A stretch of 36,297 bases of DNA from Acidimicrobiaceae bacterium (GTDB lineage: Bacteria; Actinomycetota; Acidimicrobiia; Acidimicrobiales; Aldehydirespiratoraceae). Below, in pieces: positions 5,655 to 20,391 of the stretch. The position numbers and the translations under genes are program-made. The stretch lies in NCBI GenBank assembly GCA_009835735.1, contig VXWX01000087.1:1-36297 (forward strand), given 5' to 3'. The notes beneath the pieces were generated by a model. It was not told the DNA's origin. It made no database searches and saw only the letters and a list, made by a program, of their open reading frames with translations. Position 1 is the stretch's first letter, and every line of letters begins with the position of its first letter.

Positions 5655-5670
5655 GCAGGCACCCGCAGCC

Positions 5671-6159
5671 GTGAGCGAGTCGTTCCACTTCGAGGCGGTC
5701 GACATGCTCACCGTGGGCACGCTCGGGCCCAAGGGCGAGCGCGTCTTCTACCTGCAGTGCATGGCTGAGGGCGAGCTGGTGTCGCTCAAGTTCGAGAAGC
5801 GCCAGGCGGCCGCCCTGGCCGAGTACCTGGAACGGGTGCTGGGCGAGCTGCCCGACGCCGAGGAAACAGACCCGCCCGACGACCTCGACATGCGCGAACC
5901 GGTGGTGGAGGCCTGGACGATCGGCGCCCTGGGGATCGCCTACGACCAGGAGGAGGGCCGGGTGATCCTCGTGGCCGAGGAGTTGGTCGAGGACCCCGAC
6001 GACACCGGAGCGTCGGCTCGGTTCACGCTGACCCGCCCCCAGGTCAGGGCGCTGGTGACCCGGGCCCGGGCCGTGGTTGCCGCCGGCCGTCCGCCGTGCC
6101 CGTTCTGCCTACGGCCCCTGGAACCGTCCAACCGAGACTGGTGCCCGTGCCACAACTGA
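5671..6159 (+). CDS. DUF3090 family protein
   Basis: A 162-residue conserved actinobacterial protein of unknown biochemical function. It begins at GTG 5671 and has the family's opening (VDMLTVGTLGPKGERVFYLQ) and a C-terminal cysteine cluster CPFC followed by CPCHN that looks like a small zinc-binding site. The body is acidic. The gene sits between the phosphomutase and the SCO1664-type gene, as in many actinobacteria, which argues that the three products work together. No signal peptide is visible, so it is probably cytosolic. The stop is followed by the nested palindrome rather than by tight coupling to the next gene. Confidence 0.88.
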   Translation: MSESFHFEAVDMLTVGTLGPKGERVFYLQCMAEGELVSLKFEKRQAAALAEYLERVLGELPDAEETDPPDDLDMREPVVEAWTIGALGIAYDQEEGRVILVAEELVEDPDDTGASARFTLTRPQVRALVTRARAVVAAGRPPCPFCLRPLEPSNRDWCPCHN

Positions 6160-6238: not shown

Positions 6239-7000
6239 ATGGCGGCCGGCACCGGCGACACGCCCGGCCAGTCCCCCATCCGGGACCGCCCCCCGATCGA
6301 GACTGCCCGTGCCCTAGCCCTGCTGTCCAGCGGCGAAGTGGACCTGCGCGGAAGGATGCCTTACAGCTCCAACGCGACTTTCTTGGTGGACGTGACCCAT
6401 GAGGGACTCGACGCCCAAGCCATCTACAAGCCGGTGCGGGGTGAGCGGCCGCTGTGGGACTTCCCTTCCGGCCTGGCCCACCGCGAGGCCGGCGCGTTCT
6501 GGATGGACGCCGCGCTCGGGTGGGACGTGGTTCCCCCCACCGTGGTGCGCGACGACCTGCCCTTCGACGAGGGATCGCTCCAGCTGTTCATGCCCGCCGA
6601 TTTCGAGGAGCACTACTTCACACTGGTGGAACAGGAGCGGCTCAGGCCCGAACTGGAGCGCATCTGCGCGCTCGACATCGTGATCAACAACACCGACCGC
6701 AAGTCGGGCCACTGCCTGCTCGGCACCGACGGCACCATATGGGCCATCGACAACGGGCTGTCGTTCCACTCCCAGTTCAAGCTGCGCACCGTGATCTGGG
6801 ATTTCGCCGGCGAGCCGCTGCCCGACGACGTGGGCCGGGACCTGCGCTCACTGCTGGACGCCGGCCTTCCCGAGCCCCTGGCCGCGGCGCTCACGGCCCA
6901 GGAGCAGGACGCCACCCTGGCCCGCACCGAGGCCCTGCTGGCTTCGGGCCGGTTCCCGTCCGACGGCCACGGCCACCGCTGGCCCTGGCCGCTGGTCTAG
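6239..7000 (+). CDS. SCO1664 family protein (kinase-like fold)
   Basis: A 253-residue actinobacterial protein related by fold to HipA/phosphatidylinositol kinase-like phosphotransferases. Motifs that support this are an early GRMPYSSNATFLV and AIYKPVRGERPLWDFP (Lys equivalent to the ATP-binding lysine), then LDIVINNTDRKSGH (catalytic-loop-like D-x-x-x-N-N-x-D-R) and IWAIDNGLSFH (metal-binding D-N). The true substrate is unknown. The start is ATG 6239; there is no clear Shine-Dalgarno sequence because the palindrome lies immediately upstream. In many actinobacteria mshC follows this trio; here the next gene is convergent and unrelated, so the mycothiol link is missing locally. Confidence 0.85.
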   Translation: MAAGTGDTPGQSPIRDRPPIETARALALLSSGEVDLRGRMPYSSNATFLVDVTHEGLDAQAIYKPVRGERPLWDFPSGLAHREAGAFWMDAALGWDVVPPTVVRDDLPFDEGSLQLFMPADFEEHYFTLVEQERLRPELERICALDIVINNTDRKSGHCLLGTDGTIWAIDNGLSFHSQFKLRTVIWDFAGEPLPDDVGRDLRSLLDAGLPEPLAAALTAQEQDATLARTEALLASGRFPSDGHGHRWPWPLV

Positions 7001-7024
7001 TTGGGGGCAAGTCCCGCCTCGTGG

Positions 7025-8092
7025 TCAGTTCCGCAGGCGCGAGGCGCTGACTTCGCGCATGCGGGCCAGCACGTCCACACCCAACTGGTGCCACACGTGC
7101 AGCAGGTCCACCAGCACCCAGTTCTCCCGGATCAGCAGACGGTCCTCGCCGGCGGGGTCCGGGGACCGCTCCACCCGCCAGAAGTCGAGGCTGCGCATGT
7201 CGAGCCGCCGGCCGGCGGGAGCGATGCCGAGCCACCCGTCGCCGGTGAGGGTCATGTGCATGCCCGGCCATGCGGTCACCGCCACGTAGTCACCGTCGGC
7301 GAAGTAGCTGTGCTCGCCGTGGTAGCCCCCGCCGCGGTCGGGCATGGCTGCAAGGAACGGGATCTGGTGCCAGCGGCGGAAACCGTCGACGCCGCGGGCG
7401 GTCCCGATGCCAGCCGGCCCGTACCAGCTGAACTTCGGGTGCCACCAGTGCTCGAGGTTCATCGCCTCGACGGGTTCCGCCGGGTGCTTGACCATGTCGC
7501 TGAGCATCCCGACGACATGGCGCAGGCTCGCCTCTGATCGGGCGGGATCACGGGGCCCCGGCGCGAGGCCGTCACCGGGTGCGGGGCCGGGAACGTGCCA
7601 CTCGCGGCCGAGCGACGGACCCATGGGCCACGTCCCCGACTGGATCATCAGCTCGGGCAGGTCCCAGAGAGCCTGCATCTCGACCACCCGGCCATCGGCT
7701 ACCCGGTAGTACTCGTGGAACCTCATGGCGGCCTGCTGGCCCGACGGCGGGATGCCGCAGAACGGCCCGACCCAGGTCCCCGTGTAGTGCCCGCAGCACC
7801 CCACCCAGCCGTTGTCGTAGGGGTCCGGGCCGGCCATGACGATCGTGTCGCGCCGCTCGAGGTCGGGCATGGCCCTCTGCAGCGGGGCCAGCGCCTCGCC
7901 CAGCAGGCCGGAGGGACCGTCGAGATCCTCGAAGGGGTGGGCCAGGTGGACCTCGGCGTCCGGCGCGAACACTGCGTCCAGCGCCGCTCCGACCCGGTCG
8001 CCGTCGTAGTCGTAGAGGGCGGCGCGCAGCGGACTGAGCATCGCCTTGTTGGCGTCATGGGCGTCGCTCATGGCCCGCAGTCCCGAGATCAC
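7025..8092 (-). CDS. Tandem SnoaL/NTF2-like domain protein (copy 1)
   Basis: A 355-residue soluble protein with two NTF2-fold domains, about residues 15-150 and 195-345. The first has the pattern CGIPPSGQQAAMRFHEY and YRVADGRVVEMQ; the second has WHPKFSWYGPAGIGT followed by RRWHQIPFLAAMPDR. Both patterns recur in copy 2 (10415-11467), so the two are paralogues. NTF2/SnoaL folds serve as cyclases, hydrolases, isomerases or ligand binders; the exact reaction is unknown. The GTG at 8092 overlaps the stop of the MetE-like gene (GTGA), suggesting translational coupling; an ATG at 8071 is an alternative. It is the last gene of the minus-strand transport and catabolic locus and converges on the SCO1664 gene. 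Confidence 0.8.
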   Translation of the reverse strand: MISGLRAMSDAHDANKAMLSPLRAALYDYDGDRVGAALDAVFAPDAEVHLAHPFEDLDGPSGLLGEALAPLQRAMPDLERRDTIVMAGPDPYDNGWVGCCGHYTGTWVGPFCGIPPSGQQAAMRFHEYYRVADGRVVEMQALWDLPELMIQSGTWPMGPSLGREWHVPGPAPGDGLAPGPRDPARSEASLRHVVGMLSDMVKHPAEPVEAMNLEHWWHPKFSWYGPAGIGTARGVDGFRRWHQIPFLAAMPDRGGGYHGEHSYFADGDYVAVTAWPGMHMTLTGDGWLGIAPAGRRLDMRSLDFWRVERSPDPAGEDRLLIRENWVLVDLLHVWHQLGVDVLARMREVSASRLRN

Positions 8093-9240
8093 CAGAGCCG
8101 GCTGCTGGCCAGCTCGGCTCCCTCGGCCAGGGCGGCCAGCTTGGCGTAGGCGATCTCCGGGTCGATGCCCGCGTAGCCGGCGAAGGTGGAGAACCCACAG
8201 TCGGTCCCCGCTATCACCCGCTCACGCCCCACGATCGCCGCGAACCGCTCGATCCTCTGCGCAATCAACTCGGGATGCTCCACGAAGTGGGTGGTGGTGT
8301 CGATCACGCCCGGCGCCAGCACCAGGTCGTCATCGAGGTCCGCCTCCGCGAAGACCGTCCACTCGTGGGCGTGCCGGGGGTTGGCCGTCTCGAACAGCAG
8401 CGTCCGGGGCTTGGCGGCCAGCGCGATGGGCAGCACCTGCTCCATGGGCGCGTCTTGCGTGTGGGGTCCCTCGTAGTTTCCCCAGCACACGTGCAGGCGG
8501 ATCCGGTCGGCGTCGATGTTCCGCACCGACCAGTTGAGGGCCTCCACTGCCATTCGGGCGGCCCGCTCGTAGGCCTCGTCGGGCTGGCCCTTGAACATCA
8601 TGTGCCGGCCCAGCCCGAGGTCGGGTGAGTCGAGCTGGAGCAGGAATCCCGCCGCCACGATGGCCTCGTACTCCGGACGCATCGCCTCGGCCAGGGCGTA
8701 GAGGTACTCCTCGTGGTCGCCGTAGTAGTCGTCAGGCTGGAACAGCGCGATCACACCCGGAGAGGCCGCGTTCATGAATCCGCCCTCGGGCCGGTGACGC
8801 TCGAGCGCGGCGGCGAAATTGGCGATGTCGCGCCGGCAGGGCTCGCTGTCGGTGGGCGCCACGGGACCCACGCAGCGGGGCCGCGTGTAGGTGGGGGTGC
8901 CGCCGCTGGCGGCTTGGCGCTGGAGGAACGACGGGTACTCCTCGAGGTCGGCGGGCGCCCGTCTGGGGCTGTCGCCGGCGAAGCCGCTGATCCGGTACTT
9001 GATGTAGGTGGCGTAGCTGAGCTTGCTCATCTCGCCGTCACTCACCAGGTCCACACCCGAGGCGACCTGGCGGGCAACCACCTCGTCCACCGCGGCAGCC
9101 ACCGTCGCGTGGTGCTCGTCGATGTCGACGTCGTCCTCGTTCTCGATCGCGAACACACCCGCGGTCACCGCCTCCGAGCGCGGCAGGCTGCCGACGTGGG
9201 TGGTGAGGATCCGTCCCGCACCCTCCGTCCGAGCGCTCAT
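8089..9240 (-). CDS. MetE-like zinc-dependent alkyl/methyltransferase (cobalamin-independent methionine synthase II family)
   Basis: A 383-residue protein corresponding to the C-terminal catalytic barrel of cobalamin-independent methionine synthase, without the N-terminal half. Zinc ligands are present: His250-x-Cys252 (LHVCWGN), Glu284 (LLFETANP) and Cys348 (GTDCGFST). ILTTHVGSLPR at the start and DLVSDGEMSK near residue 65 are family marks. Proteins of this length include epoxyalkane:coenzyme M transferase and other enzymes that move an alkyl group to a zinc-bound thiol, as well as short methionine synthases. Here, within a catabolic transport locus, dealkylation or demethylation of an imported solute is a plausible inference, not shown. 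The ATG at 9240 overlaps the ATPase stop (ATGA), and its own stop overlaps the next start. Confidence 0.83.
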   Translation of the reverse strand: MSARTEGAGRILTTHVGSLPRSEAVTAGVFAIENEDDVDIDEHHATVAAAVDEVVARQVASGVDLVSDGEMSKLSYATYIKYRISGFAGDSPRRAPADLEEYPSFLQRQAASGGTPTYTRPRCVGPVAPTDSEPCRRDIANFAAALERHRPEGGFMNAASPGVIALFQPDDYYGDHEEYLYALAEAMRPEYEAIVAAGFLLQLDSPDLGLGRHMMFKGQPDEAYERAARMAVEALNWSVRNIDADRIRLHVCWGNYEGPHTQDAPMEQVLPIALAAKPRTLLFETANPRHAHEWTVFAEADLDDDLVLAPGVIDTTTHFVEHPELIAQRIERFAAIVGRERVIAGTDCGFSTFAGYAGIDPEIAYAKLAALAEGAELASSRLW

Positions 9241-10415
9241 GATCTGATGGCGAGATGGGTCTGGCGGTCGAAGAAGTGCAGGTGCCGCGCATCCACGTTC
9301 ACTCTGGCCCGGTCGCCGACCCTCGCAGTGGACGAGGCCGAGAAGCGGGCGGTGCAACGTCCGCTGTCGCGCAGCTCGTCGAGGGCGTCGGGGTCGCCAC
9401 TGTCGACGCTCGGGGCGCTGAGATTGAAGTGGACCAGCGTCTCGGCCCCCAGCGCCTCCCGGACGTCCACCGTGGCGTCGAGTCGCTGGTCATCGGGGTG
9501 GTCAGCCACGACCGCGGCGTCCTCGAGGTGCTCGGGGCGGATACCGACGACAACCGGGCGGTTCAGGTGTTCGGTGAGCGCGGGACGCTCGGCGACCACC
9601 TCGGACGGAACCGCCAGGCGCTGGTCGCCGAGGACCACCGAGTAGCGGTCACCGCCGGCCTCCTCGTGCCGCTCGAGGGTGGCCTCGTAGAGGTTCATCG
9701 AGGGAGACCCGATGAAGGCGGCGACGAACACGTTGTCGGGACTGCCATAGATGCCCTCGGGGGTGTCGACCTGCTGCAGGATGCCGTCCTTGATCACGGC
9801 CACCCTGTCGCCCATGGTCATGGCCTCAACCTGATCGTGGGTCACGTAGAACGTCGTGACTCCCAGCTCGCGCTGGATCCCGGCTATGTCGGCTCGCATC
9901 TGCACTCGCAGCTTGGCGTCCAGATTCGACAGCGGCTCGTCCATGAGGAAGAGCGCGGGGTGGCGCACAATGGCCCGCCCCATAGCGACCCGCTGCCGCT
10001 GGCCACCGGACAGGTGCGCGGGCTTCTTCTCGAGCTGCTCGGTCAGTTCCAGGATCTCGGCTGCCTGGCGCACCTGTGCCTCGCGTTCGGCCCTGGGCAC
10101 GCGTCGCAGCTTCAGCGGGAAGGCGATGTTCTCGGCCACCGTCATCTGCGGGTACAGGGCGTAGTTCTGGAACACCATGGCCATGTCGCGATCCTTGGGG
10201 GCGACGTCGTTGAGGCGGCGGTCGCCGACATAGATGTCGCCGCTGGTGATGTCCTCGAGCCCGGCGATCATCCGCAGAGCAGTCGACTTGCCGCACCCGG
10301 AGGGACCGACGAGCACCAGGAACTCGCCGTCATCGAGGTGCAGGCTGAGGTCCGTGATGGCACGGAAGCCGTTGGGGTAGTCCTTGATGAGGTTCTTGAG
10401 GGTGACGGTGGACAT
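9237..10415 (-). CDS. ABC transporter ATP-binding protein, UgpC/MalK type
   Basis: A 392-residue ATPase of a carbohydrate-type (CUT1) importer. Walker A is GPSGCGKST (37-45), the Q-loop VFQNYALYP (81-89), the ABC signature LSGGQRQR (135-142), Walker B ALFLMDEPLSNLD (154-166) and the switch His in YVTHDQ. After residue about 240 the C-terminal OB-fold (TOBE/MOBA-like) regulatory domain of the MalK/UgpC group is present (VVGIRPEHL). It should energise the two permeases encoded upstream. Its ATG overlaps the stop of the SnoaL copy 2 gene (TGATG), so transporter and SnoaL genes are probably co-translated. Confidence 0.93.
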   Translation of the reverse strand: MSTVTLKNLIKDYPNGFRAITDLSLHLDDGEFLVLVGPSGCGKSTALRMIAGLEDITSGDIYVGDRRLNDVAPKDRDMAMVFQNYALYPQMTVAENIAFPLKLRRVPRAEREAQVRQAAEILELTEQLEKKPAHLSGGQRQRVAMGRAIVRHPALFLMDEPLSNLDAKLRVQMRADIAGIQRELGVTTFYVTHDQVEAMTMGDRVAVIKDGILQQVDTPEGIYGSPDNVFVAAFIGSPSMNLYEATLERHEEAGGDRYSVVLGDQRLAVPSEVVAERPALTEHLNRPVVVGIRPEHLEDAAVVADHPDDQRLDATVDVREALGAETLVHFNLSAPSVDSGDPDALDELRDSGRCTARFSASSTARVGDRARVNVDARHLHFFDRQTHLAIRS

Positions 10416-11467
10416 CAGAACTCCTTGATCCCGAGCAGGTGACGCATGCGATCCAACGGCTCCAGTCCCTGCTGGGACAGCCAGTGGAGCAGATCGATGA
10501 ACACCCAGTTGTCAGCGAGCTTGTCGCCTTCGCGGCGGTACACATCCACGACCCGCATCTCTGCGGGACCGCTGGCCGGCAGCCCGAGGAAGCCGCCACG
10601 GGGCCGGTGGGACACGTTGGCCCACCCGAACCACGCCGCGTAGCGGCCCTCGGCCAGCCGGGCCACATGGCCGTGGAACTCCTTGTCGGTCAGGCCGAAA
10701 CGGAACGGGAGCGAGTGCTGCTGCCGGTAGCGCTCGATCGTGTAGCTGGCGCCGATGCCGTCGGGGCCGACCCAGAGCATGTCGTCGTGCCAGCAGCGGG
10801 CCAGAACCTCGTGGGGCAGCCGGTCGTCACCCGACTCGCGGGCGATGCGGTTGGCCTCGCTGAGGTCTTCCGCCATGCGCCGGGCCACGGCCAGGGTGGC
10901 CTTGCCCTCGGCCGGGTCCTGCTCGTCGTAGAGCAGACCATCACCCGTACGGGGGCCGACGTAGAAGCCGGGCTGGCCGGTGGGGGGCGGTAACGGGAAC
11001 TGGCCGGCCTGGCGCATGACGCTCAGCAGGTCACAGAACATGGCCGTCTCGGCGATGCGGCCGTCGGCGACCCGGCTGAACTCGGCGTAGCGCAGCAGCG
11101 CCACCCGCCGGGTCGGGGGTATGTCGAGCCATGGCCCGTCGAACAGGCCCATCAGGTGGCCCATGGAGCACACCCAAGTCGTGGCGCCGTCATCGGCGTC
11201 GTTGTCTCCGGCGAAGAACACGTCGCAGCGGCGCTGCAGCGGGGCCATGGCGCGCACCAGCGGCTGCCAGAAGACCTCGGCCACAGCATGGGCGCCCCGC
11301 TGCTCGTAGAAGGGGTGCATTCCCCGCCACAGGTAGTCCTCGGACACTCCGGCCCCCAGCGCCTCGGCGATGTCGCCGGTCGTGGCGTCCCTTGCCCGGC
11401 ACGCCGCGCCCAGCGCCTCGTGATAGTCCAGCACCACCCTCTTGGCTTCCTGAAGGTGCGCGGCCAC
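10415..11467 (-). CDS. Tandem SnoaL/NTF2-like domain protein (copy 2)
   Basis: A 350-residue soluble protein with two NTF2-fold domains. Domain 1 ends with WLDIPPTRRVALLRYAEF and SRVADGRIAET; domain 2 contains CWHDDMLWVGPDGIGASY and QQHSLPFRFG. These line up position by position with copy 1, showing a shared origin. The gene is inserted between permease and ATPase genes of the importer, six bases after the permease stop and overlapping the ATPase start. That placement argues that its product is needed together with uptake, for example acting on the imported compound. No catalytic residues can be assigned with confidence. The start is GTG 11467, the only good start after the permease. Confidence 0.8.
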   Translation of the reverse strand: MAAHLQEAKRVVLDYHEALGAACRARDATTGDIAEALGAGVSEDYLWRGMHPFYEQRGAHAVAEVFWQPLVRAMAPLQRRCDVFFAGDNDADDGATTWVCSMGHLMGLFDGPWLDIPPTRRVALLRYAEFSRVADGRIAETAMFCDLLSVMRQAGQFPLPPPTGQPGFYVGPRTGDGLLYDEQDPAEGKATLAVARRMAEDLSEANRIARESGDDRLPHEVLARCWHDDMLWVGPDGIGASYTIERYRQQHSLPFRFGLTDKEFHGHVARLAEGRYAAWFGWANVSHRPRGGFLGLPASGPAEMRVVDVYRREGDKLADNWVFIDLLHWLSQQGLEPLDRMRHLLGIKEF

Positions 11468-11473
11468 GGCTTC

Positions 11474-12559
11474 TCAGCCCTTGACTGCGCCGGCGCCGAG
11501 ACCCCGGACGAGGTGCTTCTGGAACAGGATGATCACGATCACGATGGGAAGGGTGATCGACACCGACGCAGCCGCCGCCTCGGTGATCGTGCGCGAGCTC
11601 TCGCCGCCGGTCAGCGACACGATCGCCACCGGCAGCGTCCACTCCGTGGGGGCCAGCACCCTCACGAACAGGTACTCGTTGTAGGCCAGCAGCATCGTGA
11701 ACAGGCCCGTCGCGATGATGGCGGGCCACATGATGGGGATGATCACCTTGCGGAAGGCCTGCAGCCGGGTGGCGCCGTCCATCATGGCGGCCTCCTCCAT
11801 CTCCTTGGGCACCTCGATGAAGAAGCTGCGGAGCATCCAGATGGTGAACGGCTGGTTCACGGCCACCAGGGCGAGCACGATGGCCAGCCGGGTGTCCAGG
11901 ACTTGAAGGGTGTCGATCCCGGGGAAGTCGATCAGAGGGAAGTTCCAGGAGCCGACGCCGGTGCTGGTGAGCCACTCGTCGATCTCCTTGGCGCCGAAGA
12001 AGTACGGGAGCACGAACGCCGTCCGGGGCAGCGCCCGGAATCCCAGTGCGACGATCAGGATGACCGCGCCGGAGATGCCGGTGTAGCGGGCGAGGCCGTA
12101 TCCGGCCAACAGCCCGATGGACAGCGAGATGAGCATGGTCAGAAGCGTGACGACGACGCTGTTAACCAGGAAGTCGTACTCGTCGTTGGCCTCCCAGAAC
12201 CGGGGGAAGCGCCACAGCGCCACGCAGATCACCGCGGTGGCTCCCAGGAACCACGGCCAGCCATGGCGGGCACGGCGCCCGATCAGGCCCAGCGCAGCGG
12301 CGATGGCGGCGACCACCAGTACGAACGCCAGCACTCCCCACATGTTCACGTCGTCGGAGTCGAGCCAGAAGTTGCGGTAGGCGTTGGCCGTGGTCTCGTA
12401 CCCCCACAGCACGGGGGTCTTCGAGGCGACGTCCCGGGTGAATTTGATCGACGTCTGGGCGGTCCACACGAACGGTGTGACGCTCCACACCACCAGCAGG
12501 ATCATTACGGCGTGAAGGGCGATCCGGGAGGGCCGGATGGAGGGCCGCGAGAGCTTCAC
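11474..12559 (-). CDS. Carbohydrate-type ABC permease (MalG-like) with extra membrane hairpin
   Basis: A 361-residue inner-membrane permease. The EAA loop that docks on the ATPase is MEEAAMMDGATRLQAFRKV (254-272), and the C-terminal ATPase-contact helix ends in QKHLVRGLGAGAVKG, typical of MalG-type subunits. The usual family length is 270-300 residues; this one carries about 60 extra residues (roughly 70-128) between the first helix and the conserved N-S-V-V-V-T core, containing two additional hydrophobic helices (73-93 and 102-118). A second enlargement (about 187-222) lengthens an external loop. The gene lies 3 bases after the first permease gene and 6 before SnoaL copy 2. Confidence 0.9.
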   Translation of the reverse strand: MKLSRPSIRPSRIALHAVMILLVVWSVTPFVWTAQTSIKFTRDVASKTPVLWGYETTANAYRNFWLDSDDVNMWGVLAFVLVVAAIAAALGLIGRRARHGWPWFLGATAVICVALWRFPRFWEANDEYDFLVNSVVVTLLTMLISLSIGLLAGYGLARYTGISGAVILIVALGFRALPRTAFVLPYFFGAKEIDEWLTSTGVGSWNFPLIDFPGIDTLQVLDTRLAIVLALVAVNQPFTIWMLRSFFIEVPKEMEEAAMMDGATRLQAFRKVIIPIMWPAIIATGLFTMLLAYNEYLFVRVLAPTEWTLPVAIVSLTGGESSRTITEAAAASVSITLPIVIVIILFQKHLVRGLGAGAVKG

Positions 12560-12562
12560 GGG

Positions 12563-13429
12563 TCAGGTCCTCTCCGCGATCTGGTCGCGGTAGCTGCGCC
12601 ACAGGAACGGTATGAGCACGACGAAGATGCCGATGACGGTGAGGACCGCGATGGCGTTGCCCTTGCCCAGCCGGCCGATGTCGAAGGCGGTGGCGATCCT
12701 GACGTTGTAGACCGCCAGGGTGTGGGCCTCGGTGAACCGGTTGCCGGTCCACACGAACACGCTGTCGTAGACGCGGTAGGCGTCCATGACCGAGATCAGG
12801 CCCACGAACACCACCAGCAGCCGCAGGTGCGGCAGGGTGACGTGCCAGAGGTTGCGCCAGAAGCCGGCCCCGTCGAGGGCCGCAGCCTCGACCCGCTCCT
12901 CGGGAAGCGTCTGCAGCCCCGCGAAGAAGGTGATCATGGCGAAGGGCATGACGTACCAGATGTACTGGACCACGATCAACACCTTGACGTTTGAGGCGCT
13001 GACCGCGAAGGCGTCGTCGGTGAACACCTCCCACAGCCAGGACACCAGTCCGCCCCGCTCGAACAGGTCCTCGTAGATGAGCGTCCCCACCACGGGGGTG
13101 ACGATGAACGGGAGCAGCAGCGCAGCCATGTAGATGGCACGCCCTCGCCCGATCCGGTCGAGCAGCAGCGCGACGGCGAGGCCGAAGATCATCGACGCCG
13201 GCACGGTCACCACGACGAACACCAGCGTGAACTGCACCGCGGCCCAGAACTCCGGGTCCGACAGCACGTCGCGGTAGTTGTCCCAGCCCACCCATTCGGG
13301 GTTGTTGAGGTCTCGGAGGAGCAGCTTCTGGAAGCCCAGCCAGACCGTGGTTATCAGCGGGAACACCATCAGGGCCAGCATGACGATCACGCTCGGGATG
13401 GTGAACCACCAGAACGTTCGTCGATTCAC
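12563..13429 (-). CDS. Carbohydrate-type ABC permease (MalF/UgpA-like)
   Basis: A 288-residue membrane protein with six predicted helices and the standard length. The EAA loop is EERVEAAALDGAGFWRNLW followed by HVTLP. It forms the heterodimeric pore with the MalG-like subunit encoded next. The ATG is at 13429. It is separated from the upstream binding-protein gene by 92 bases holding a strong hairpin, so its message probably comes from partial read-through of that structure. Confidence 0.92.
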   Translation of the reverse strand: MNRRTFWWFTIPSVIVMLALMVFPLITTVWLGFQKLLLRDLNNPEWVGWDNYRDVLSDPEFWAAVQFTLVFVVVTVPASMIFGLAVALLLDRIGRGRAIYMAALLLPFIVTPVVGTLIYEDLFERGGLVSWLWEVFTDDAFAVSASNVKVLIVVQYIWYVMPFAMITFFAGLQTLPEERVEAAALDGAGFWRNLWHVTLPHLRLLVVFVGLISVMDAYRVYDSVFVWTGNRFTEAHTLAVYNVRIATAFDIGRLGKGNAIAVLTVIGIFVVLIPFLWRSYRDQIAERT

Positions 13430-13464
13430 GGCCGTGTCCTCCCGCTTGGGAACCCTACGCGTTG

Positions 13465-13516
13465 GGGGGACTGGGGGTAGGCGGGGTCGGAACCCATCGC
13501 CTACCCCCAGTCATCC
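13465..13516 (-). terminator. Strong hairpin between binding-protein and permease genes (attenuator or stabiliser)
   Basis: GACTGGGGGTAGGCG (13469-13483) and its exact reverse complement (13498-13512) form a 15-bp stem. The loop contains a further GGGT/ACCC pairing, and two or three more outer pairs are possible. It lies six bases from the end hairpin to the binding-protein stop. There is no U-run. In binding-protein transporter operons such intergenic stems commonly keep the binding-protein mRNA more abundant than the permease part. Confidence 0.7.
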
Positions 13517-13521
13517 AAGTG

Positions 13522-15021
13522 CTAGAGCAGTCCCTGCTCGGACGCCTCGGCCAGGTAGGCGGCCTCGGCGGCGGCCAGGGCGTCGGCGACCGGCGTGCCG
13601 TCGAGGATCGTCACGAGCGCCTCGCCGAGCTTGGCCCGGGCCAGGCCGGCGGCCGGATGGGTGAGGTCGGCTCCGCGACCCCGCACCAGGCTCGCCTCGG
13701 CCGCAGCCGCGTCGCGCGGGCCGTTGGGATGGGACACGCCTGTGCGAGTCACCAGGCCGAACTCGGCCGCAGCCTCCTGGCTCTCGAGGTCGGTGGCGGC
13801 CAGCATCACCAGGAAGATGTGCTCGACCATGTCCTCTGGGGTGCCGACCGGGATCATCCAGCCGTCGATGTAGGCCGGCGCGGCCACGGTGTCGCCACCG
13901 GTGCCGAGCGCGGGCGCGAACTGGATCTCGCCCACCACGGTCGAGGCCTCGGGGTCGTCCATGGCCCCGGCCCGGGACGCCCAGGTGTGGCCGAGGATCG
14001 CCTCTCCAGTCTGGAAGGCGGCCTGCACGTCATCGGTGCTGTACGACCCGGCCGCGTCGGGCGCGCAGGTCTGCCACATGTCGCGCAGCAGCGTCGCGGC
14101 CTGGACTCCCTCAGGGCTGTTGAAGTTCGGCTGCCCGCTGACGGGATCGATCGGGGTGACCCCCAGGGATCCGAGCACGCTGTCGAACTCGATCTGCCAT
14201 GCCCATCCGGCGGAGAGCATGTACAGGAATCCGATGTCGTAGCCGCTCGCGATGATCTGCTGGCACGTGTCGAACGCTTCCGCGAACGTTGTCGGCACCG
14301 ACATGCCCAGTTCCGCCATCGCAGGCTCGTTGTAGAAGACGTGCATGGTGTTGGAGATCATGGGGATCGAGTAGATGTTGCCGTCGATGGAGGCCATGTC
14401 CCAGAACGCAGCATCGATCTGGTCGAGATTGAACTCGTCCCGGTACTTGTCGATCAGGTCGTTGAGGGGCAGCACGAAACCCTGGTTGGCCAGCTCACCG
14501 ATGAACGCGTTCGAGCCCTGGTAGACCTCGAAGGTCGGAGCACCCGTGGAGGCGTCCAGCGTCATGGCGTTGCGGGCCTCGACCGAGTCGAGGAATTGGT
14601 AGTTGAAGGAGTAGTTCCCCTCCTCGCAGTCCGCCACTTCCTCGGCGTACTGCGACACGATCGGGAACTCCCAACCCATCAGGTCGATCTCGATGTTCTC
14701 ACTGGGGTTCGGGATCGGACACTCATCGGAGATGAGGTTCATGGCCATCTCCTCTTCGGGCTCGGCCATCTCCTCTTCCGGCTCGGCCATCTCCTCTTCA
14801 GCCATCTCCTCTTCAGCCATCTCGGCCTCGGGCTCGGCCATCTCCTCTTCGGCCATCTCGGCTTCGTCGGTGGCGGCCTCCGTCTCCGCAGCTGTGGACG
14901 TGTCGGCGTCGGCCGCCGGGGCCGGCGCTTCGTCGTCGTCATCCCCGCACGCGGCAGCGATGAGGGTCAGGGCACAGAAGGCGGCGAGGATTCGCCACCA
15001 ACGGCGCGATGTTGCTTTCAT
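13522..15021 (-). CDS. Extracellular solute-binding lipoprotein (family 1, CUT1 type) with acidic repeat linker
   Basis: A 499-residue lipoprotein. The signal peptide ends in a lipobox with Cys25 (IAAAC) followed by GDDDD. Residues about 41-93 are an extremely acidic Met/Ala/Glu repeat segment (units MAEEE and MAEPEEE), then the solute-binding fold follows: FEVYQGSNAFIGELA, a hinge region IYSIPMISNTMHVFYN, and YIDGWMIPVG are typical of sugar-type binding proteins. It captures the substrate and delivers it to the permeases. The ATG at 15021 is fixed by AGGAGG eight bases upstream (15030-15035); an in-frame ATG at 15105 overlaps the bicupin stop and lacks a signal peptide. The substrate is unknown; aromatic residues near the hinge are compatible with a small polar ligand. 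Confidence 0.92.
   Translation of the reverse strand: MKATSRRWWRILAAFCALTLIAAACGDDDDEAPAPAADADTSTAAETEAATDEAEMAEEEMAEPEAEMAEEEMAEEEMAEPEEEMAEPEEEMAMNLISDECPIPNPSENIEIDLMGWEFPIVSQYAEEVADCEEGNYSFNYQFLDSVEARNAMTLDASTGAPTFEVYQGSNAFIGELANQGFVLPLNDLIDKYRDEFNLDQIDAAFWDMASIDGNIYSIPMISNTMHVFYNEPAMAELGMSVPTTFAEAFDTCQQIIASGYDIGFLYMLSAGWAWQIEFDSVLGSLGVTPIDPVSGQPNFNSPEGVQAATLLRDMWQTCAPDAAGSYSTDDVQAAFQTGEAILGHTWASRAGAMDDPEASTVVGEIQFAPALGTGGDTVAAPAYIDGWMIPVGTPEDMVEHIFLVMLAATDLESQEAAAEFGLVTRTGVSHPNGPRDAAAAEASLVRGRGADLTHPAAGLARAKLGEALVTILDGTPVADALAAAEAAYLAEASEQGLL
14743..14868 (-). repeat. Short tandem repeats encoding Met-Ala-Glu-rich linker
   Basis: Units of 15 or 21 bases based on CATCTCCTCTTC plus (G/C)GGCTCGGC on the plus strand recur about six times and encode MAEEE, MAEPEAE, MAEEE, MAEEE, MAEPEEE, MAEPEEE. 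Unit length is a multiple of three, so copy-number change by slippage would keep the frame. The encoded linker joins the lipid anchor to the ligand-binding domain. Confidence 0.85.
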
Positions 15022-15062
15022 GTCTCTTCCCTCCTCTAGGGATTGTTGTAGGGACACTCTCT

Positions 15063-15077
15063 GCGCCTTTCGGGCGC
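15063..15077 (-). promoter_or_regulatory. Small hairpin in the leader of the binding-protein gene
   Basis: GCGCC, a 5-base loop and GGCGC form a short stem 41-56 bases before the binding-protein ATG, in the 80-base gap after the bicupin gene. It may mark the end of the bicupin message or a leader structure. No convincing promoter is visible in this gap. Confidence 0.3.
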
Positions 15078-15101
15078 GGGAGATCATTAGGGGCCGGGCG
15101 C

Positions 15102-16250
15102 TCATGGCGCGGTGCCCGCTATCAGCGAGGTGGGGGCGAGGTAGCCCGACGCGTCGTGGGTCCAGCCGCCGGCGGCAGCCGACCGCACCAGTTCCTCGTC
15201 CCAGAGCACCTGCGGGCGCTGCTGGGCATTGCAGACGATCAGAGCACGGGCCTCGGAGTCACCGACATTGCGTAAGTCCCGCCACACGCCGGGAGGAACC
15301 GAGACCACCGAGCCCTCCCCGGGCCGGGCCGTCAGCGTCTCGGGGCCGCGGTTGACGGAGACCTCCCACTGCCCCCCGGTCAGGATCGCGGCCTGGTGCA
15401 GGGCTAGCCGGTGCAGGCCGAAACTCACGCCGGGCGCGACGCGCAGCCATTCGACGCTGAACCCGTGCGGGACCGTGATGGGCGGCCTGTGGTGGCGGTC
15501 CTCGGTCACGCCGTAGCCGATCACGGGCGCCAGTTCCGCTGGCGGCGATTCGCCGTTGCCCGAGACGCTCGACAGCAGGGCATGATGCGACCAGGCGAGG
15601 TCGTCGAACGTCACGACCCGTGCCGCCAGGTCGGTGTCGCTGTAGCTGTCAAGGGCGGACAGTTGCGATGGGCTCAGCGGTGCGACGCAATCGGTGGGGA
15701 CCTGGCCGTCGGTGGCTTCGATGACGGCGCCGTCGGGCATGAGGAACAGACCGGTCTCGGCGGCGGCTGTCAGCACGTCGGGCGCCCAGACGATCCCGCC
15801 TGTCTCGTCGCCGCCGAGCACCGCGTACAGCCAGCCGTCGTCCGGGCCGATGTTCTCGAATCCCCGGAACACCCAGGTCGGAACGGAGAACACTGTCCCC
15901 GCCGAGATGTCGAGGGTCTGCTGGCCGTGCTCACCGATCCGCATGCGCCACGAGCCGCGGGTGCAGATGAACACTTCCGCCGTGAAGTGCATGTGCTGGT
16001 TGTTGACGACTCCGTGGCCCATGGAGGCCGCACCGACATGGAACCCGTGTGCTTCGGGGAGGTTCACCACCTGGTCGGGGTTCTGCGACACGCCCGGCCC
16101 TATGAGCGAGTAGCTCGCCTTGCCCGCTGAGCGAGGCAGGCGCACATCCACGAAGGCCGACCGGTCCGCGACGAATGCGCCGGGCTCGATGATGCGGCGC
16201 GCGAATTCTGCGGCATCCAGCGTCGGCACACCGTCGGAGGAGTGGGTCAT
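15102..16250 (-). CDS. Bicupin protein
   Basis: A 382-residue protein with two cupin barrels. The first (about residues 65-150) contains NNQHMHFTAEVFICTRGSW, with His86, His88 and Glu92 in the usual metal-ligand arrangement. The second (about 265-345) contains GVSFGLHRLALHQAAILTGG and PGEGSVVSVPPGVWRDL, with histidines in similar positions. Bicupins include dioxygenases, isomerases and sugar-modifying enzymes; the reaction is not readable here. The ATG at 16250 overlaps the LacI gene's stop (ATGA), so regulator and bicupin are co-translated. It is upstream of the importer genes and is likely part of the same pathway. Confidence 0.8.
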   Translation of the reverse strand: MTHSSDGVPTLDAAEFARRIIEPGAFVADRSAFVDVRLPRSAGKASYSLIGPGVSQNPDQVVNLPEAHGFHVGAASMGHGVVNNQHMHFTAEVFICTRGSWRMRIGEHGQQTLDISAGTVFSVPTWVFRGFENIGPDDGWLYAVLGGDETGGIVWAPDVLTAAAETGLFLMPDGAVIEATDGQVPTDCVAPLSPSQLSALDSYSDTDLAARVVTFDDLAWSHHALLSSVSGNGESPPAELAPVIGYGVTEDRHHRPPITVPHGFSVEWLRVAPGVSFGLHRLALHQAAILTGGQWEVSVNRGPETLTARPGEGSVVSVPPGVWRDLRNVGDSEARALIVCNAQQRPQVLWDEELVRSAAAGGWTHDASGYLAPTSLIAGTAP

Positions 16251-17329
16251 TGGCCTGCGCGCCGCTCGGTGCTGCCGTTGTGACTCGGCAACGACCCCGG
16301 CCCGCCCTGTTCGGTGTCACCCTTGCGGGTGGTCAGGCCGCGGCGGAGTGTGCCCGCCACCACCACCGACGGCGGCTGGGCGTCGGAGGGATCGGCGGTG
16401 TCGCCCGCGGCGAGTTCCACGGCGTGCTCCGCGAGCCGGTCGGCGGGCTGGACCAGAGTGGTCAGGTCGTAGCCCGCCCAGCCTGCCTGCGGGAGCCCGT
16501 CGAAGCCGGTCACGAGCACGTCGCCCGGCGCGGTCAGCCCGTAGCGTCGCAGGCCGTCGAGCATTCCGAAGGCAACTTCGTCGCTGCCGACCATGATCGC
16601 GTCGGGCAGCGAGTCGAGGGATCCCACCCTTTCGGCGGCCCGGTAGCCGGCCTCGTAGGTGAAGGCGCCCGCCTCCATGTAGTTGCATCTCACGCCGGTG
16701 GAGGCCAGCGTGCGAGCGGCGCCGCGGAAGCGAGCCCGATCGGTCGAGGCCGCCGCCACTCCCCCGAGGTAGAGGACTCTGGTGCATCCGAGGTCGGCGA
16801 GGTGGCGGGCCAGCTCTGAGGCGCCGGCCTCGTTGTCCACCGTCACCGACGGCACGATGCCGGCGGCGTCGGGATGGTTGAAGGCCACCAGCGACAGCCC
16901 GGTCTGTCTCATCCGGGCCAACTGGGCCTCGGCGATGGTCGCGGAGGCAAGGATCAGCCCGTCGAGTCGGTACTGCATGACCGCTTCGAGGGTCTCGTTC
17001 ACCTCTTCTTGGTCGAGGAAGCTGAACAGCAGCAGTTGGCGGCCGCGGGCGGTGAGGCGGCGCGAGAAGTAGGTCACCACGTTCTGCCAGTACTCGCCGA
17101 CGGCAGGAACGACGGCGCCCACGATGTTGGTGCGCTGGGACTTCAGGCTGCGGGCGATGGCGTTGGGGACGTACCCGAGCCGGTCCGCGGCGGCTTCGAT
17201 CTTGAGCCGGGTGTCGGGCGCTACCACTTCAGGGGTTGTGAAGCACCTGGCGACGGTGGCCTGCGAGACGCCCGCCGCTGCGGCGACATCTACTGAGGTG
17301 ACTGCGCGCTTGCGGTCCGATCGGACCAT
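16247..17329 (-). CDS. LacI-family transcriptional regulator
   Basis: A 360-residue repressor-type protein. The N-terminal helix-turn-helix is TSVDVAAAAGVSQATVARCF (11-30) followed by the hinge-helix region GYVPNAIARSLKSQRT. The C-terminal periplasmic-binding-protein-like domain (about 65-340) has the family's MVGSDEVAFGMLDGLR and VLVTGFDGLPQAG. It presumably senses the imported solute or a product and controls this locus. The ATG is only six bases from a candidate -10, with a palindromic, CG-centred operator inside the promoter, indicating self-control and a leaderless transcript. It is co-translated with the bicupin. Confidence 0.93.
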   Translation of the reverse strand: MVRSDRKRAVTSVDVAAAAGVSQATVARCFTTPEVVAPDTRLKIEAAADRLGYVPNAIARSLKSQRTNIVGAVVPAVGEYWQNVVTYFSRRLTARGRQLLLFSFLDQEEVNETLEAVMQYRLDGLILASATIAEAQLARMRQTGLSLVAFNHPDAAGIVPSVTVDNEAGASELARHLADLGCTRVLYLGGVAAASTDRARFRGAARTLASTGVRCNYMEAGAFTYEAGYRAAERVGSLDSLPDAIMVGSDEVAFGMLDGLRRYGLTAPGDVLVTGFDGLPQAGWAGYDLTTLVQPADRLAEHAVELAAGDTADPSDAQPPSVVVAGTLRRGLTTRKGDTEQGGPGSLPSHNGSTERRAGQ

Positions 17330-17335
17330 CCGACG

Positions 17336-17364
17336 ATCTTATGTATACGTATTCATCCTTGCAA
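17336..17364 (-). promoter_or_regulatory. Promoter with embedded LacI-type operator upstream of the regulator
   Basis: On the minus strand TTGCAA (17359-17364, -35, 4 of 6 matches) and TAAGAT (17336-17341, -10, 4 of 6) are spaced by 17 bases. The spacer is filled by ATGAATACGTATACAT (17341-17356), a 16-bp palindrome with one mismatched pair centred on CG, the form typical of LacI-family operators. The ATG begins six bases after the -10, so the transcript would be leaderless. Confidence 0.65.
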
Positions 17365-17416
17365 CCACAGGCCTTTCGAGACTTGCCGTTTCCGAGGAGC
17401 AGCCGGCGCCTGAAGG

Positions 17417-18385
17417 TCAGCCGGTGTGCAGGATGATCTGCTTCCAGATGGCTGTCTCGTCGATGAGCACCCACTCGCGGCGCAGCCCGCGAGGGCCGAA
17501 CTCGGCGTGGCTTATCCCCATGACATGGACATCCGCGCCGCTGGGCCGGCCGAATGCCCCCCAGCCGTCGTGGGCACCGGTCAATGACCAGCGCAGCGCG
17601 GCCCGGGGACCCAGGCTGTCGTCGTCGCGTCCTATGCGGTGGTGGATCTCGAAGCGGGCCTCGGGAAAGGAGCTGCGCAGACCCAGCCAGAAGCGGTCGG
17701 CCTCGGTCCGCCCGTAACCAGTGCGGCCACCGGGCAGCTCGAGGTGGACGGCCCTGTCGTAGTGCTCGGTGACCACGTCCAAGCCACCACCCATTAGTCG
17801 CTCCAGCACTTCCCCGTAGCGTTGCCCCGTCCTGTGGTCGTTGCCCGAGCCGGTGTAGGCAGGGGTGGCATCGAGTGACGGGTGGAAGGGGGCGCTGCAC
17901 GCCTCGGGCCCGCCCTCGGCCTCAATCTGTTCGGTGGCGTACCGCCTGGGGTCGATGCCGAGCTGGCGCACGATCGCACCCTGGTCCCGTACCAGCCACT
18001 CGTCGTAGATCTGGTTCTGGCGAGCTGCGCAGTCGGCGATGATGCGGTAGCGCAACTGCGTGCCGGTCGGGGGCCCGTAGGCACCGTCGCCGCTGTGGGT
18101 GGCCAGCGACATGATCCGGTGCGACGACAGGAAGCCGGCCTCGTCGTCGCCGCTCCAGATCACGTCCTCGCCCAGAAGCTGGCGGTCGCCGAATGTGGCC
18201 AGGGTCGCAAGGGTGGCGGCAATCACGCTCTGATTGCCCCTCGCTATCCCCTCCGGCGACCGCACGACGATGTCGGGCGCGTAGAGCTCCTCGAGGGCGT
18301 CGACCTCGCGGCCCTCCCATATCCGGTAAGTGATGCCCAGGATGTAGTCAGGCAGGTCCCGGTAGCGGGGGTCGAAGCCCTTCAC
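17417..18385 (-). CDS. Tandem SnoaL/NTF2-like domain protein (copy 3)
   Basis: A 322-residue soluble protein with two SnoaL-like domains. The second (about 185-320) is the more canonical one, with YDRAVHLELPGGRTGYGRTE and FWLGLRSSFPEARFEIHH. Domain 1 has IVVRSPEGIARGNQSVIAA and YDEWLVRDQGAIVRQLG. It is more distant from copies 1 and 2 than those are from each other, but has the same two-domain plan and size class. The start is GTG 18385. It lies 17 bases after etfA on the same strand, so it may be transcribed with the electron-transfer flavoprotein genes, and just upstream of the LacI promoter. Confidence 0.78.
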   Translation of the reverse strand: MKGFDPRYRDLPDYILGITYRIWEGREVDALEELYAPDIVVRSPEGIARGNQSVIAATLATLATFGDRQLLGEDVIWSGDDEAGFLSSHRIMSLATHSGDGAYGPPTGTQLRYRIIADCAARQNQIYDEWLVRDQGAIVRQLGIDPRRYATEQIEAEGGPEACSAPFHPSLDATPAYTGSGNDHRTGQRYGEVLERLMGGGLDVVTEHYDRAVHLELPGGRTGYGRTEADRFWLGLRSSFPEARFEIHHRIGRDDDSLGPRAALRWSLTGAHDGWGAFGRPSGADVHVMGISHAEFGPRGLRREWVLIDETAIWKQIILHTG

Positions 18386-18402: not shown

Positions 18403-19374
18403 CTAGCGACTCTCGAGTGCCTCGGTGAGCTTGGGCAGCACCTTGTGAACGTCGCCCACGATGCCAAGGTCGGCCACCGCGAAGATGGGGGCCTCGGAGT
18501 CCTTGTTGATGGCGATGATGTTCTTGGAGCCCTTCATGCCCACCAGGTGCTGGGTGGCGCCCGAGATGCCGCAGGCGATGTACACCGTGGGCTTGACCAC
18601 CTTGCCGGTCTGGCCGACCTGGTAGCTGTAGGGCACCCAGCCCGCGTCCACGATGGCCCGGCTCGCCCCGGGCGCGGCGCCCAGCTGCTTGGCCAGGCCC
18701 TCGATCATCGCGTAGGCGTCGGCGGCGCCCAGTCCCCGCCCGCCGGAGACGACGATGGCGGCCTCGTCGAGCTTGGGGCCCTCGGACTCCTCGGTGAAGC
18801 GGTCGCGGACCACTGCGCCGCCGGTCGAGCCGAGGTCGGGAACGGGAAGGTCCACAACCTCCGCCGGTGAACCGCCGACAGCCTCGGGCTCGAAGGACTT
18901 CGGACGGACCAGCCAGATGTCGGGCCCGCCGCTGGTGAACCGGGAAGTCACGTTGAGGGTTCCGCCGAACACCGGCTCCACGCCCACCAGACGGTCGCCG
19001 TCGAGGCGGAGGTCGACCACATTCGACAGCACGCTGACGTCCAGCTTCACCGACAGCCGGGCCGCAACATCGCGGCCGTCGTAGGTGGTGCCCAGCAGGA
19101 AGGCGTCAGGCGCGGCCACACTGCCGTCCGAGATGGCGGCGGCCACCGCCGAGGCGACCGACACGCCCTTCATGCGTCCGTCGAGATCGCCGGTGGCGTA
19201 CACCGCGGTGACACCATGGTCACCGAGCTCGGCCGCGCAGGCCGCGCCGTCTCCGCCGCAGAACACTTCGACGGTGCCGGCAACCTCTCGAGCCTTGGCC
19301 AGCATCTCAAGCGTGATCGTGGCCACGCCGTCGTCGCCGGCCTCACAGAACACCCAGATCTTGTCCAATGTCAT
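18403..19374 (-). CDS. etfA: Electron transfer flavoprotein alpha subunit
   Basis: A 323-residue FAD-binding subunit of the cytosolic ETF heterodimer, which takes electrons from acyl-CoA and other flavin dehydrogenases and passes them to ETF:quinone oxidoreductase. The C-terminal FAD domain is clear: [56 protein letters not shown] and [17 protein letters not shown]. Length is normal. The ATG at 19374 has AGGAGG seven bases upstream and lies 11 bases after the etfB stop. An upstream Arg/Gly-rich in-frame extension is antisense-type shadow sequence over etfB. Confidence 0.96.
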
Positions 19375-19385
19375 GGCTGGGCCTC

Positions 19386-20165
19386 CTATATCACCTTGAG
19401 TTCGTCGAGAAAGGCCACGATGCGCTCGTGGGCGTCGCCCTCGTCCACCACCACCTCGCCCGCGGCCCGCTCGGGAGCCTCGGCAACGTCGGTGATCTCC
19501 TGGCCCGCACCAGCCCAGCCGACCCGCTCGGCGGCGATGCCGAGATCGGCGATCTTCAGCTGGTCGACCGGCTTGTTCTTGGCCTGCATGATCCCCCGGA
19601 ACGACGGGTATCGGGGCTCGACCACTCCGGCCGTCACCGACACCACCGCGGGCAGCGGGCACTCGACTAGGTCGGCACCGGCCTCGGTCTGGCGGCGCAC
19701 GGTGGCCGTGGAGCCCTCGACCGCGATCTCCTTGGCGAACGTCACCGAGGGCAAGCCGAGCAGTTCGGCCACCTGGGCAGGCACCACGCCGGTGTAGCCG
19801 TCGCTGGACTCGGTGGCGGCCAGCACCAGGTCGGGCTCGGCCCGCTCGATGGCTGCGGCGAGCACGCGGGACGTGCCCAGCGCGTCGGAGCCGGCAAGTG
19901 CCTCGTCACTAATGAGCGTGGCCGAGTCGGCCCCCATGGCCAGGGCGGTGCGCAGGCCGCTCACCTCGTCGTTGGGCACCATCGAGACCAGGTGCACAGA
20001 ACCCTCACCAGCGGCGTCCACCAGCTGCAGGGCCATCTCCACCCCGTAGGAGTCGGACTCGTCGAGGATGAGCTTCACGTTTCGCCGCAGCGTCTTGGTC
20101 TCGGGGTCAAGCGCGCCGGGATCGGCGGGATCGGGAATCTGCTTCACGCAGACGACAACCTTCAT
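19386..20165 (-). CDS. etfB: Electron transfer flavoprotein beta subunit
   Basis: A 259-residue AMP-binding partner of EtfA. Family marks are the opening VVVCVKQIPDP, ALAMGADSATLISD and LVLAATESSDGYTGVVPAQV, the segment that binds the adenine nucleotide, plus FRGIMQAKNKPV near the recognition-loop region used for dehydrogenase docking. The ATG at 20165 is chosen since upstream codons lack family sequence. It is first in a likely etfB-etfA operon that may continue into SnoaL copy 3. Confidence 0.96.
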   Translation of the reverse strand: MKVVVCVKQIPDPADPGALDPETKTLRRNVKLILDESDSYGVEMALQLVDAAGEGSVHLVSMVPNDEVSGLRTALAMGADSATLISDEALAGSDALGTSRVLAAAIERAEPDLVLAATESSDGYTGVVPAQVAELLGLPSVTFAKEIAVEGSTATVRRQTEAGADLVECPLPAVVSVTAGVVEPRYPSFRGIMQAKNKPVDQLKIADLGIAAERVGWAGAGQEITDVAEAPERAAGEVVVDEGDAHERIVAFLDELKVI

Positions 20166-20220
20166 GGGCGCCAAGTGTGCCAGCGCACAGCCAGAAACGA
20201 ACCTCGCCCACCGAAGTTGT

Positions 20221-20264
20221 TCCCGCTCATGTTCGCTCCGCTCACGGGCCGCTCGGGCCACGGC
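20221..20264. repeat. Dispersed intergenic repeat, copy A
   Basis: TCCCGCTCATG, then TCGCT, CG and GGGCCGCTCGGGCC occur here in the 226-base gap between etfB and the lipid kinase gene. About 36 of 45 aligned positions match copy B at 28501-28545. The rest of the gap shows no gene or promoter that I can support. Confidence 0.5.
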
Positions 20265-20391
20265 CTCGCTCAACATCCGCCAAGTTCTTCATTCGACGCG
20301 GCCTATCCGCTCGGCCTCTGGATCATCGCCTCTTGCTCGCATGCCCCGCCCTGTTCAGCGCGCCTGGCCCGCGAGCGGACAGACTGGGTAG

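Follow-up and report, generated by a model that had tools for sequence, protein, structure and literature searches.

Introduction

Several described systems resemble parts of a ten-gene cluster on a contig from an Acidimicrobiaceae bacterium (GenBank VXWX01000087.1, assembly GCA_009835735.1). The window analysed here is this whole contig, 36,297 bases of a 3.29 Mb genome that is 84% complete, and the cluster encodes three tandem SnoaL proteins (SnoA, SnoB and SnoC), a LacI-family regulator, a bicupin, an ATP-binding cassette (ABC) importer and a MetE-like protein. The non-phosphorylative routes for L-fucose and L-rhamnose share with the cluster an SDR, a cog3618-type lactonase, an HpaI-type aldolase, LacI and a CUT1 importer; the cluster differs from them in its tandem SnoaL, MetE-like, bicupin and HpsN-like enzymes. 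The end steps of protocatechuate 4,5-cleavage (LigI, LigJ and LigK) are comparable through their Amidohydro_2 and RraA-family aldolase types, whereas the clusters are without the ring-cleaving LigAB. Sphingomonad LdpA and PcfL are cofactor-free, single-domain formaldehyde lyases of the NTF2 fold that act on aromatic substrates; as NTF2-fold catabolic enzymes they can be set, by description only, beside the SnoaL proteins of the cluster, which unlike them are tandem.

Two further enzymes provide points of comparison. MetE and short MetE (3rpd, 1ypx) have the fold of the window's MetE-like protein, its four zinc ligands, its GS and GE motifs and its active-site Asp, but the window protein is a single C-terminal-type barrel with 14-18% identity to solved MetE, has its own invariant motif (CWGNYEGPH/NPRHxHEW) and is kept with SnoaL and importer genes. 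HpsN, the sulfopropanediol (DHPS) 3-dehydrogenase, is the nearest solved relative of a HisD-like enzyme linked to the cluster in other genomes; that enzyme differs in being encoded in another kind of operon with no sulfonate genes seen, and in sharing at most about 45% identity, as judged by eye. In existing annotation the cluster genes go only by labels like ester cyclase or methionine synthase, and no description of the cluster was found in a literature search that left subscription journals and preprints largely outside its reach.

A conserved import and catabolic cluster

The interpretation of the ten genes as a conserved catabolic cluster is well supported. They run on the minus strand in the order snoA, lacI, bicupin, binding protein, permease 1, permease 2, snoB, ATPase, metE-like and snoC (Table 1). 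An earlier sequence-only reading of this DNA had placed ten open reading frames here, and all ten (10/10) are present with the families that it named: three SnoaL proteins with two NTF2-type domains each, LacI, the bicupin, SBP_bac_1, two BPD permeases, a UgpC/MalK-type ATPase and Meth_synt_2. It had also put two SnoaL genes inside the transporter run; only snoB lies there, snoC being past the ATPase and MetE-like genes and snoA before lacI. Coordinates give four-base overlaps for lacI/cupin, ATPase/metE-like and metE-like/snoC and a one-base overlap for snoB/ATPase, together with small gaps of 3 bases between the permease genes and 6 bases between permease 2 and snoB. Larger gaps separate snoA from lacI (87 bases) and the binding protein from permease 1 (92 bases). 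The longest frame of the binding protein starts at 15105; its signal and lipobox, read from the translation, place the start at 15021, which would leave an 80-base gap 5' of the gene. A single run thus holds LacI, SBP_bac_1, two permeases and a UgpC/MalK ATPase, the make-up of a LacI-controlled CUT1 import operon.

Table 1. Coordinates of cluster genes and associated features in the window
Feature	Coordinates	Strand	Basis or best match
SnoA, tandem SnoaL protein, 322 aa	17417..18385	-	PF07366 63 bits, PF12680 60 bits, two stretches each
Operator-like palindrome ATGAATACGTATACAT	17341..17356	.	12 bases 5' of lacI start
LacI-family regulator, 360 aa	16247..17329	-	PF00356, PF13377
Bicupin, 382 aa	15102..16250	-	Cupin_2, two stretches
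Solute-binding lipoprotein	13522..15021	-	SBP_bac_1 96 bits
Near-perfect hairpin in the gap from binding-protein to permease 1 gene	13470..13511	-	read by eye from the sequence
Permease 1	12563..13429	-	BPD_transp_1; NCBIfam best UgpA, under cut-off
Permease 2	11474..12559	-	BPD_transp_1
SnoB, tandem SnoaL protein, 350 aa	10415..11467	-	PF07366, two stretches
ABC ATPase, UgpC/MalK type	9237..10415	-	ABC_tran, OB_MalK; NF008653 447.6 bits, cut-off 432
MetE-like zinc alkyltransferase (predicted)	8089..9240	-	Meth_synt_2
SnoC, tandem SnoaL protein, 355 aa	7025..8092	-	PF07366 78 bits

A site matching ATGANTACGTANNCAT with at most one mismatch occurs once in the window's genome, beside lacI. All 13 of the 13 related genomes have a site of this type on the contig that carries the cluster, and five of them carry one or two extra sites elsewhere. 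Two-base-block shuffled sequence yielded no site with fewer than two mismatches and 0.6 sites per Mb with two. Palindromes like ATGANTACGTANTCAT precede lacI, and in loci L013 and L152 (loci and genomes are cited here by L and G numbers) they also precede snoA. Vibrio europaeus (L115) has three two-mismatch sites, by the SSF start, by the MFS start and before lacI; L156 has two such sites and L124 and L157 one each, while those in L044, L075, L076, L116 and L177 are taken as chance. Lying near lacI and kept in relatives, the palindrome is a putative operator-like LacI site, and the gene set appears to be a self-regulated, LacI-controlled import operon.

Conservation extends well beyond the Acidimicrobiia. 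A scan for SnoB, one genome per species, confirmed 85 loci, and the 80 that were kept range from 44 to 97% identity, the 97% loci being from metagenome-assembled genomes with Acidimicrobiaceae in their titles. By record titles they span Acidimicrobiia, Rhodobacteraceae, Gammaproteobacteria, Bacteroidetes and Anaerolineales. At least one of SnoA, SnoC, bicupin, MetE-like and HisD-like accompanies SnoB in 62 of the 80 loci, and none of these in 18. Per 80 loci the counts are SnoA 42, SnoC 41, LacI 40, bicupin 21, MetE-like 21, HisD-like 43, SDR 36, Amidohydro_2 lactonase 9, HpaI 9 and RraA 2; these are lower bounds, because many loci end about 10 kb from SnoB or at contig ends; LacI, ATPase and SDR each belong to a family with many members. 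Grouping by chance is rejected in view of the 80 loci.

The SnoaL, MetE-like and importer genes were expected to stay together in related genomes, and within the Acidimicrobiia they do. Across phyla the genes remain grouped, but the importer type changes: a CUT1-type permease pair is present at 47 of 80 loci, SSF at 11 and both together at none. Taken as one uptake-and-catabolism unit, as first proposed, the cluster is thus kept in relatives. Among 100 relatives of the window's genome, which are not independent of each other, a MetE-like protein at 77% identity or more (73% for a partial one in G044) occurs in 12, own genome counted, and SnoB in 13; all 12 have SnoB, and G003 has SnoB without MetE-like. 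Where SnoB is absent, MetE-like proteins are found at 45-51% identity (four genomes), as a 59-residue fragment (G047) or as weaker matches. SnoB occurs in 7 of 369 gammaproteobacterial genomes, two of them already among the known loci. Three of the five further genomes (G275, G325 and G183) carry MetE-like, HisD-like, SDR, bicupin, LacI, SnoA and aldolase genes in one cluster, and two (G489 and G430) have SnoB without those families in the stretches examined. Proteobacterial versions add pyruvate aldolases and the lactonase. Whatever its solute, the cluster is conserved over several phyla and also on plasmids of Roseobacteraceae, Vibrio (four of six plasmid records examined) and one haloarchaeon, and many marine bacteria have related gene sets.

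A candidate substrate and route

What the cluster imports can be named only tentatively. We infer that the LacI-controlled operon takes up and breaks down an O-methylated, amino-acid-bearing ring solute, with mycosporine-like amino acids (shinorine, porphyra-334 and mycosporine-glycine among them), which are algal sunscreen compounds, as the likeliest candidates. This identification is favoured over others while falling somewhat short of an even chance, and the catabolic regulon itself is rated much higher. A methylated, cyclic small solute, as already suggested from the sequence, agrees with the cluster. In shinorine, a six-membered ring with a tertiary C(OH)-CH2OH group carries an enol O-methyl as well as the amino acids glycine and serine, and a fitting gene exists for each step that would dismantle this compound. 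The ABC importer would take up the solute; the tandem SnoaL proteins, as NTF2-fold acid-base enzymes, would release serine and glycine by hydrolysing its C-N bonds; and the MetE-like enzyme would transfer the enol O-methyl, with homocysteine as the probable thiol acceptor. Loss of the amino acids and methyl would leave a reductone, which the bicupin might cleave in the manner of acireductone dioxygenase or quercetinase. An HpsN/HisD-like enzyme, encoded on another contig in the window's genome, could turn the C(OH)-CH2OH group into an acid by oxidation. Ring cleavage and CH2OH oxidation together would yield 4-carboxy-4-hydroxy-2-oxoadipate, a known kind of RraA-family aldolase substrate, and the 4-hydroxy-2-oxo acid would go to pyruvate via RraA or HpaI where these are present.

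The genes that accompany SnoB elsewhere favour a ring with amino acids over a bare sugar. For instance, L012, L037 and L048 each have a polar-amino-acid ABC importer (SBP_bac_3) that adjoins SnoB or is no more than 4 kb away from it, which points in this direction. So does L-serine ammonia-lyase: its gene (SdaA) adjoins SnoB in L033 and L081, and in V. europaeus L115 is co-directional with the SSF gene adjoining SnoB. Likewise, the Kineobactrum cluster contains glyA-sdaA-gcvT-gcvP, and Kineobactrum is the sole genome among 37 with two full gcvP genes. In those 37 genomes, hand-picked from the 80 loci (the 43 left out are mostly Acidimicrobiia and near-duplicate Rhodobacteraceae), 3 of 33 SdaA genes have a SnoB-family gene no more than 15 kb away, against 0.32 expected (Poisson p 0.0044), and 2 have one within 2 kb, against 0.07 expected (p 0.0025).

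Earlier work touches on the chemistry. According to a review, Vibrio harveyi is suggested to hydrolyse shinorine and porphyra-334 to mycosporine-glycine, and bacteria are suggested to form 4-deoxygadusol (PMC3083659). Genes for mycosporine breakdown were not found in the literature covered by the search described above.

Several observations weigh against mycosporine-like amino acids. The SdaA test is not independent, because L033 and L081, both among the 37 genomes, prompted it post hoc. GcvP showed no enrichment near SnoB (1 of 34 against 0.34 expected, p 0.29; 34 of 35 rows, a second fragment row of G121 being left out), SdaA lies near SnoB in none of the five further gammaproteobacterial genomes, one of which (G430) has gcvT-gcvP about 8 kb from SnoB, and in Vibrio THAF191d the SSF gene has no SdaA gene next to it. 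The sdaA gene of V. pelagius comes after a sarcosine-oxidase operon, a position that it does not occupy in strain ATCC 25916. The window cluster has no serine or glycine gene; genes for serine or glycine use are present at a few other loci. In the bicupin, R129 stands at the usual place of the third His of cupin dioxygenases, which leaves the metal-binding set incomplete. The second HisD loci (L136, L150, L151 and L155 scanned) have no operator-like site. Finally, the lactonase, HpaI aldolase, CUT1 importer and LacI would suit a sugar as well, and other loci hold SusD-like and IlvD/EDD genes that match a route through a sugar acid.

These last points belong to the main rival, a methylated sugar or cyclitol degraded by a non-phosphorylative route in which SDR and HisD-like enzymes would oxidise, the lactonase open the ring, SnoaL proteins dehydrate or isomerise, HpaI or RraA deliver pyruvate and the MetE-like protein take the O-methyl. 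Beyond the importer and LacI, it draws on an SSF closest to sugar-type symporters, an Amidohydro_2 protein closest to L-fucono-lactonase, albeit under the model cut-off, an SMP-30 gluconolactonase in L033, an IlvD/EDD dehydratase near SnoB in L064 and a SusD-like gene in L024. It leaves unexplained the SBP_bac_3 importers beside SnoB and the serine/glycine genes of some clusters, and neither glycosidase nor sugar kinase was seen in the annotated stretches; we regard it as on the whole unlikely. The solved relatives of the window's binding protein are distant and of sugar type. A plain sugar route without other chemistry is rejected, as are betaine or dimethylsulfoniopropionate use, for which the cluster holds no matching genes, and an epoxyalkane-coenzyme M route, for which no carboxylase or coenzyme M genes were seen.

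The enzymes of the proposed route

The MetE-like protein retains what a zinc-thiol transferase would need, in line with the first assignment of its fold. Its zinc ligands H251, C253, E285 and C349 (numbering of that alignment) are invariant in 15 sequences and in 13 rows from wider groups (13 of 14 rows used, one with stops in its stretch being excluded). V17-G18-S19, E71 and D205 are conserved and, in an alignment with plant MetE, fall at the MetE homocysteine site. An AlphaFold2 model (mean predicted local distance difference test score, pLDDT, 86.0) finds MetE barrels as its best PDB folds, with TM scores of 0.69-0.75 by query length among the top rows and 14-18% identity. The best NCBIfam methionine-synthase match reaches 101.7 bits under a cut-off of 406, and the protein is therefore not filed as a methionine synthase.

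A catabolic cluster whose MetE-like protein is nonetheless a plain short methionine synthase, fed by 5-methyltetrahydrofolate from released one-carbon units and not itself demethylating the substrate, deserves some weight as a minority possibility. The conserved homocysteine-site positions and MetE folds agree with it, and 51-53% identical proteins in Sphingobium and Novosphingobium lie near GcvT-like, MTHFR and purU genes. No MetH activation domain was found in the window's genome at 84% completeness, so a housekeeping methionine-synthase role is conceivable, a point that also weighs against the mycosporine reading. Set against this, the window cluster lacks a GcvT-like demethylase, and the MetE-like protein is confined to the SnoB-bearing minority (12 of 100 relatives) and is therefore not the lineage's usual methionine synthase.

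The same sphingomonad loci bear on a third alternative, methoxylated aromatics of lignin or phlorotannin type with ring cleavage by the bicupin. In Novosphingobium the MetE-like gene and an overlapping NTF2 gene lie near ligAB and GcvT-like genes, in Sphingobium they adjoin a p-hydroxycinnamoyl-CoA hydratase gene, and RraA and a PcaD-like hydrolase occur in other loci. Such substrates would not need CUT1 or SSF importers, an HpsN-like diol dehydrogenase or three tandem SnoaL enzymes, and this alternative is highly improbable. The two sphingomonad genes are on plasmids (L117 11995-13520, 53% identical; L116 17995-19508, 51%) and each overlaps a gene for a single-domain NTF2 protein; IclR comes next, and GcvT-like and folate genes are nearby.

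SnoB has invariant E140, D146, N320, W321 and D325 (n=22 sequences), and E/D pairs align in both domains of SnoB and SnoC at the customary acid-base position of SnoaL proteins. In the bicupin, H86, H88, E92 and R129 are invariant (n=11), so that His-His-Glu is conserved; its AlphaFold2 model (pLDDT 84.1) is nearest in the PDB to oxalate decarboxylase OxdC at 12-17% identity. Profiles of SnoB and of the bicupin found generic relatives only among PDB sequences.

It had been noted that no sugar dehydrogenase or aldolase is present, which is true of this stretch and untrue of the wider cluster, given the HisD-like, SDR, HpaI, RraA and lactonase counts above. In L154 (G016), L152 (G045), L153 (G003, of the window's genus) and L013, the interval from lacI to the bicupin gene holds both a HisD-like and an SDR gene. 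Most of the window's genus has them at a second locus instead: G006, G008, G009, G010, G014 and G015, six genomes of this genus, carry the HisD-like gene on a contig other than that of SnoB. These second-locus genes are 75-80% identical to that of L013 and adjoin an SDR in all three loci examined (L150, L151 and L155). The window's genome has its HisD-like gene at the edge of another contig (C59), cut by the contig end. With the L013 protein as query in place of this truncated copy, DHPS dehydrogenases score 344-354 bits (best 353.7) versus 246 for histidinol dehydrogenase. These scores place the linked enzyme nearer to HpsN than to histidinol dehydrogenase, in keeping with a C(OH)-CH2OH group. 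G001 has HisD-like without SnoB, so the two are not strictly tied. As a link through pyruvate, 2-oxoacid dehydrogenase genes near SnoB (L021, L172, L046/L160 and L165) were set aside, being in part probable local synteny.

Should mycosporine-like amino acids be the substrate, the cluster would supply a testable gene set for their bacterial fate and new chemistry for the tandem SnoaL and MetE-like families. The broadest version, a widespread and horizontally mobile pathway for eating algal sunscreens in marine bacteria and some haloarchaea, with SnoaL C-N hydrolases, a zinc/homocysteine O-demethylase making methionine and a ring-opening bicupin, is doubtful as a whole.

Other features

Some details of the window and its relatives complete the description. 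The hairpin of Table 1 has 14 paired bases per arm and four more in the loop and is placed as though it set unequal expression levels, and an acidic repeat linker (MAEEEMAEPE...) follows the binding-protein lipobox (14740-14919). An Rfam search of the window gave no match. Electron transfer flavoprotein alpha and beta genes (18403-20276) immediately precede snoA on the same strand, and a tRNA-Val(cac) gene (5610-5685, minus strand) lies 1.3 kb past the cluster end. Elsewhere, the SnoB locus of Vibrio sp. THAF191d has a photolyase gene next to its SSF gene (L156 8796-10307), and the Bacteroidetes locus L033 encodes an AprA MT2-like methyltransferase protein (6525-8171) flanked by SdaA and a second SnoaL gene. 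On a plasmid of the haloarchaeon Halobellus limi (L114 11760-18153), five ester-cyclase genes and then a MetE-like gene lie downstream of an ABC importer.

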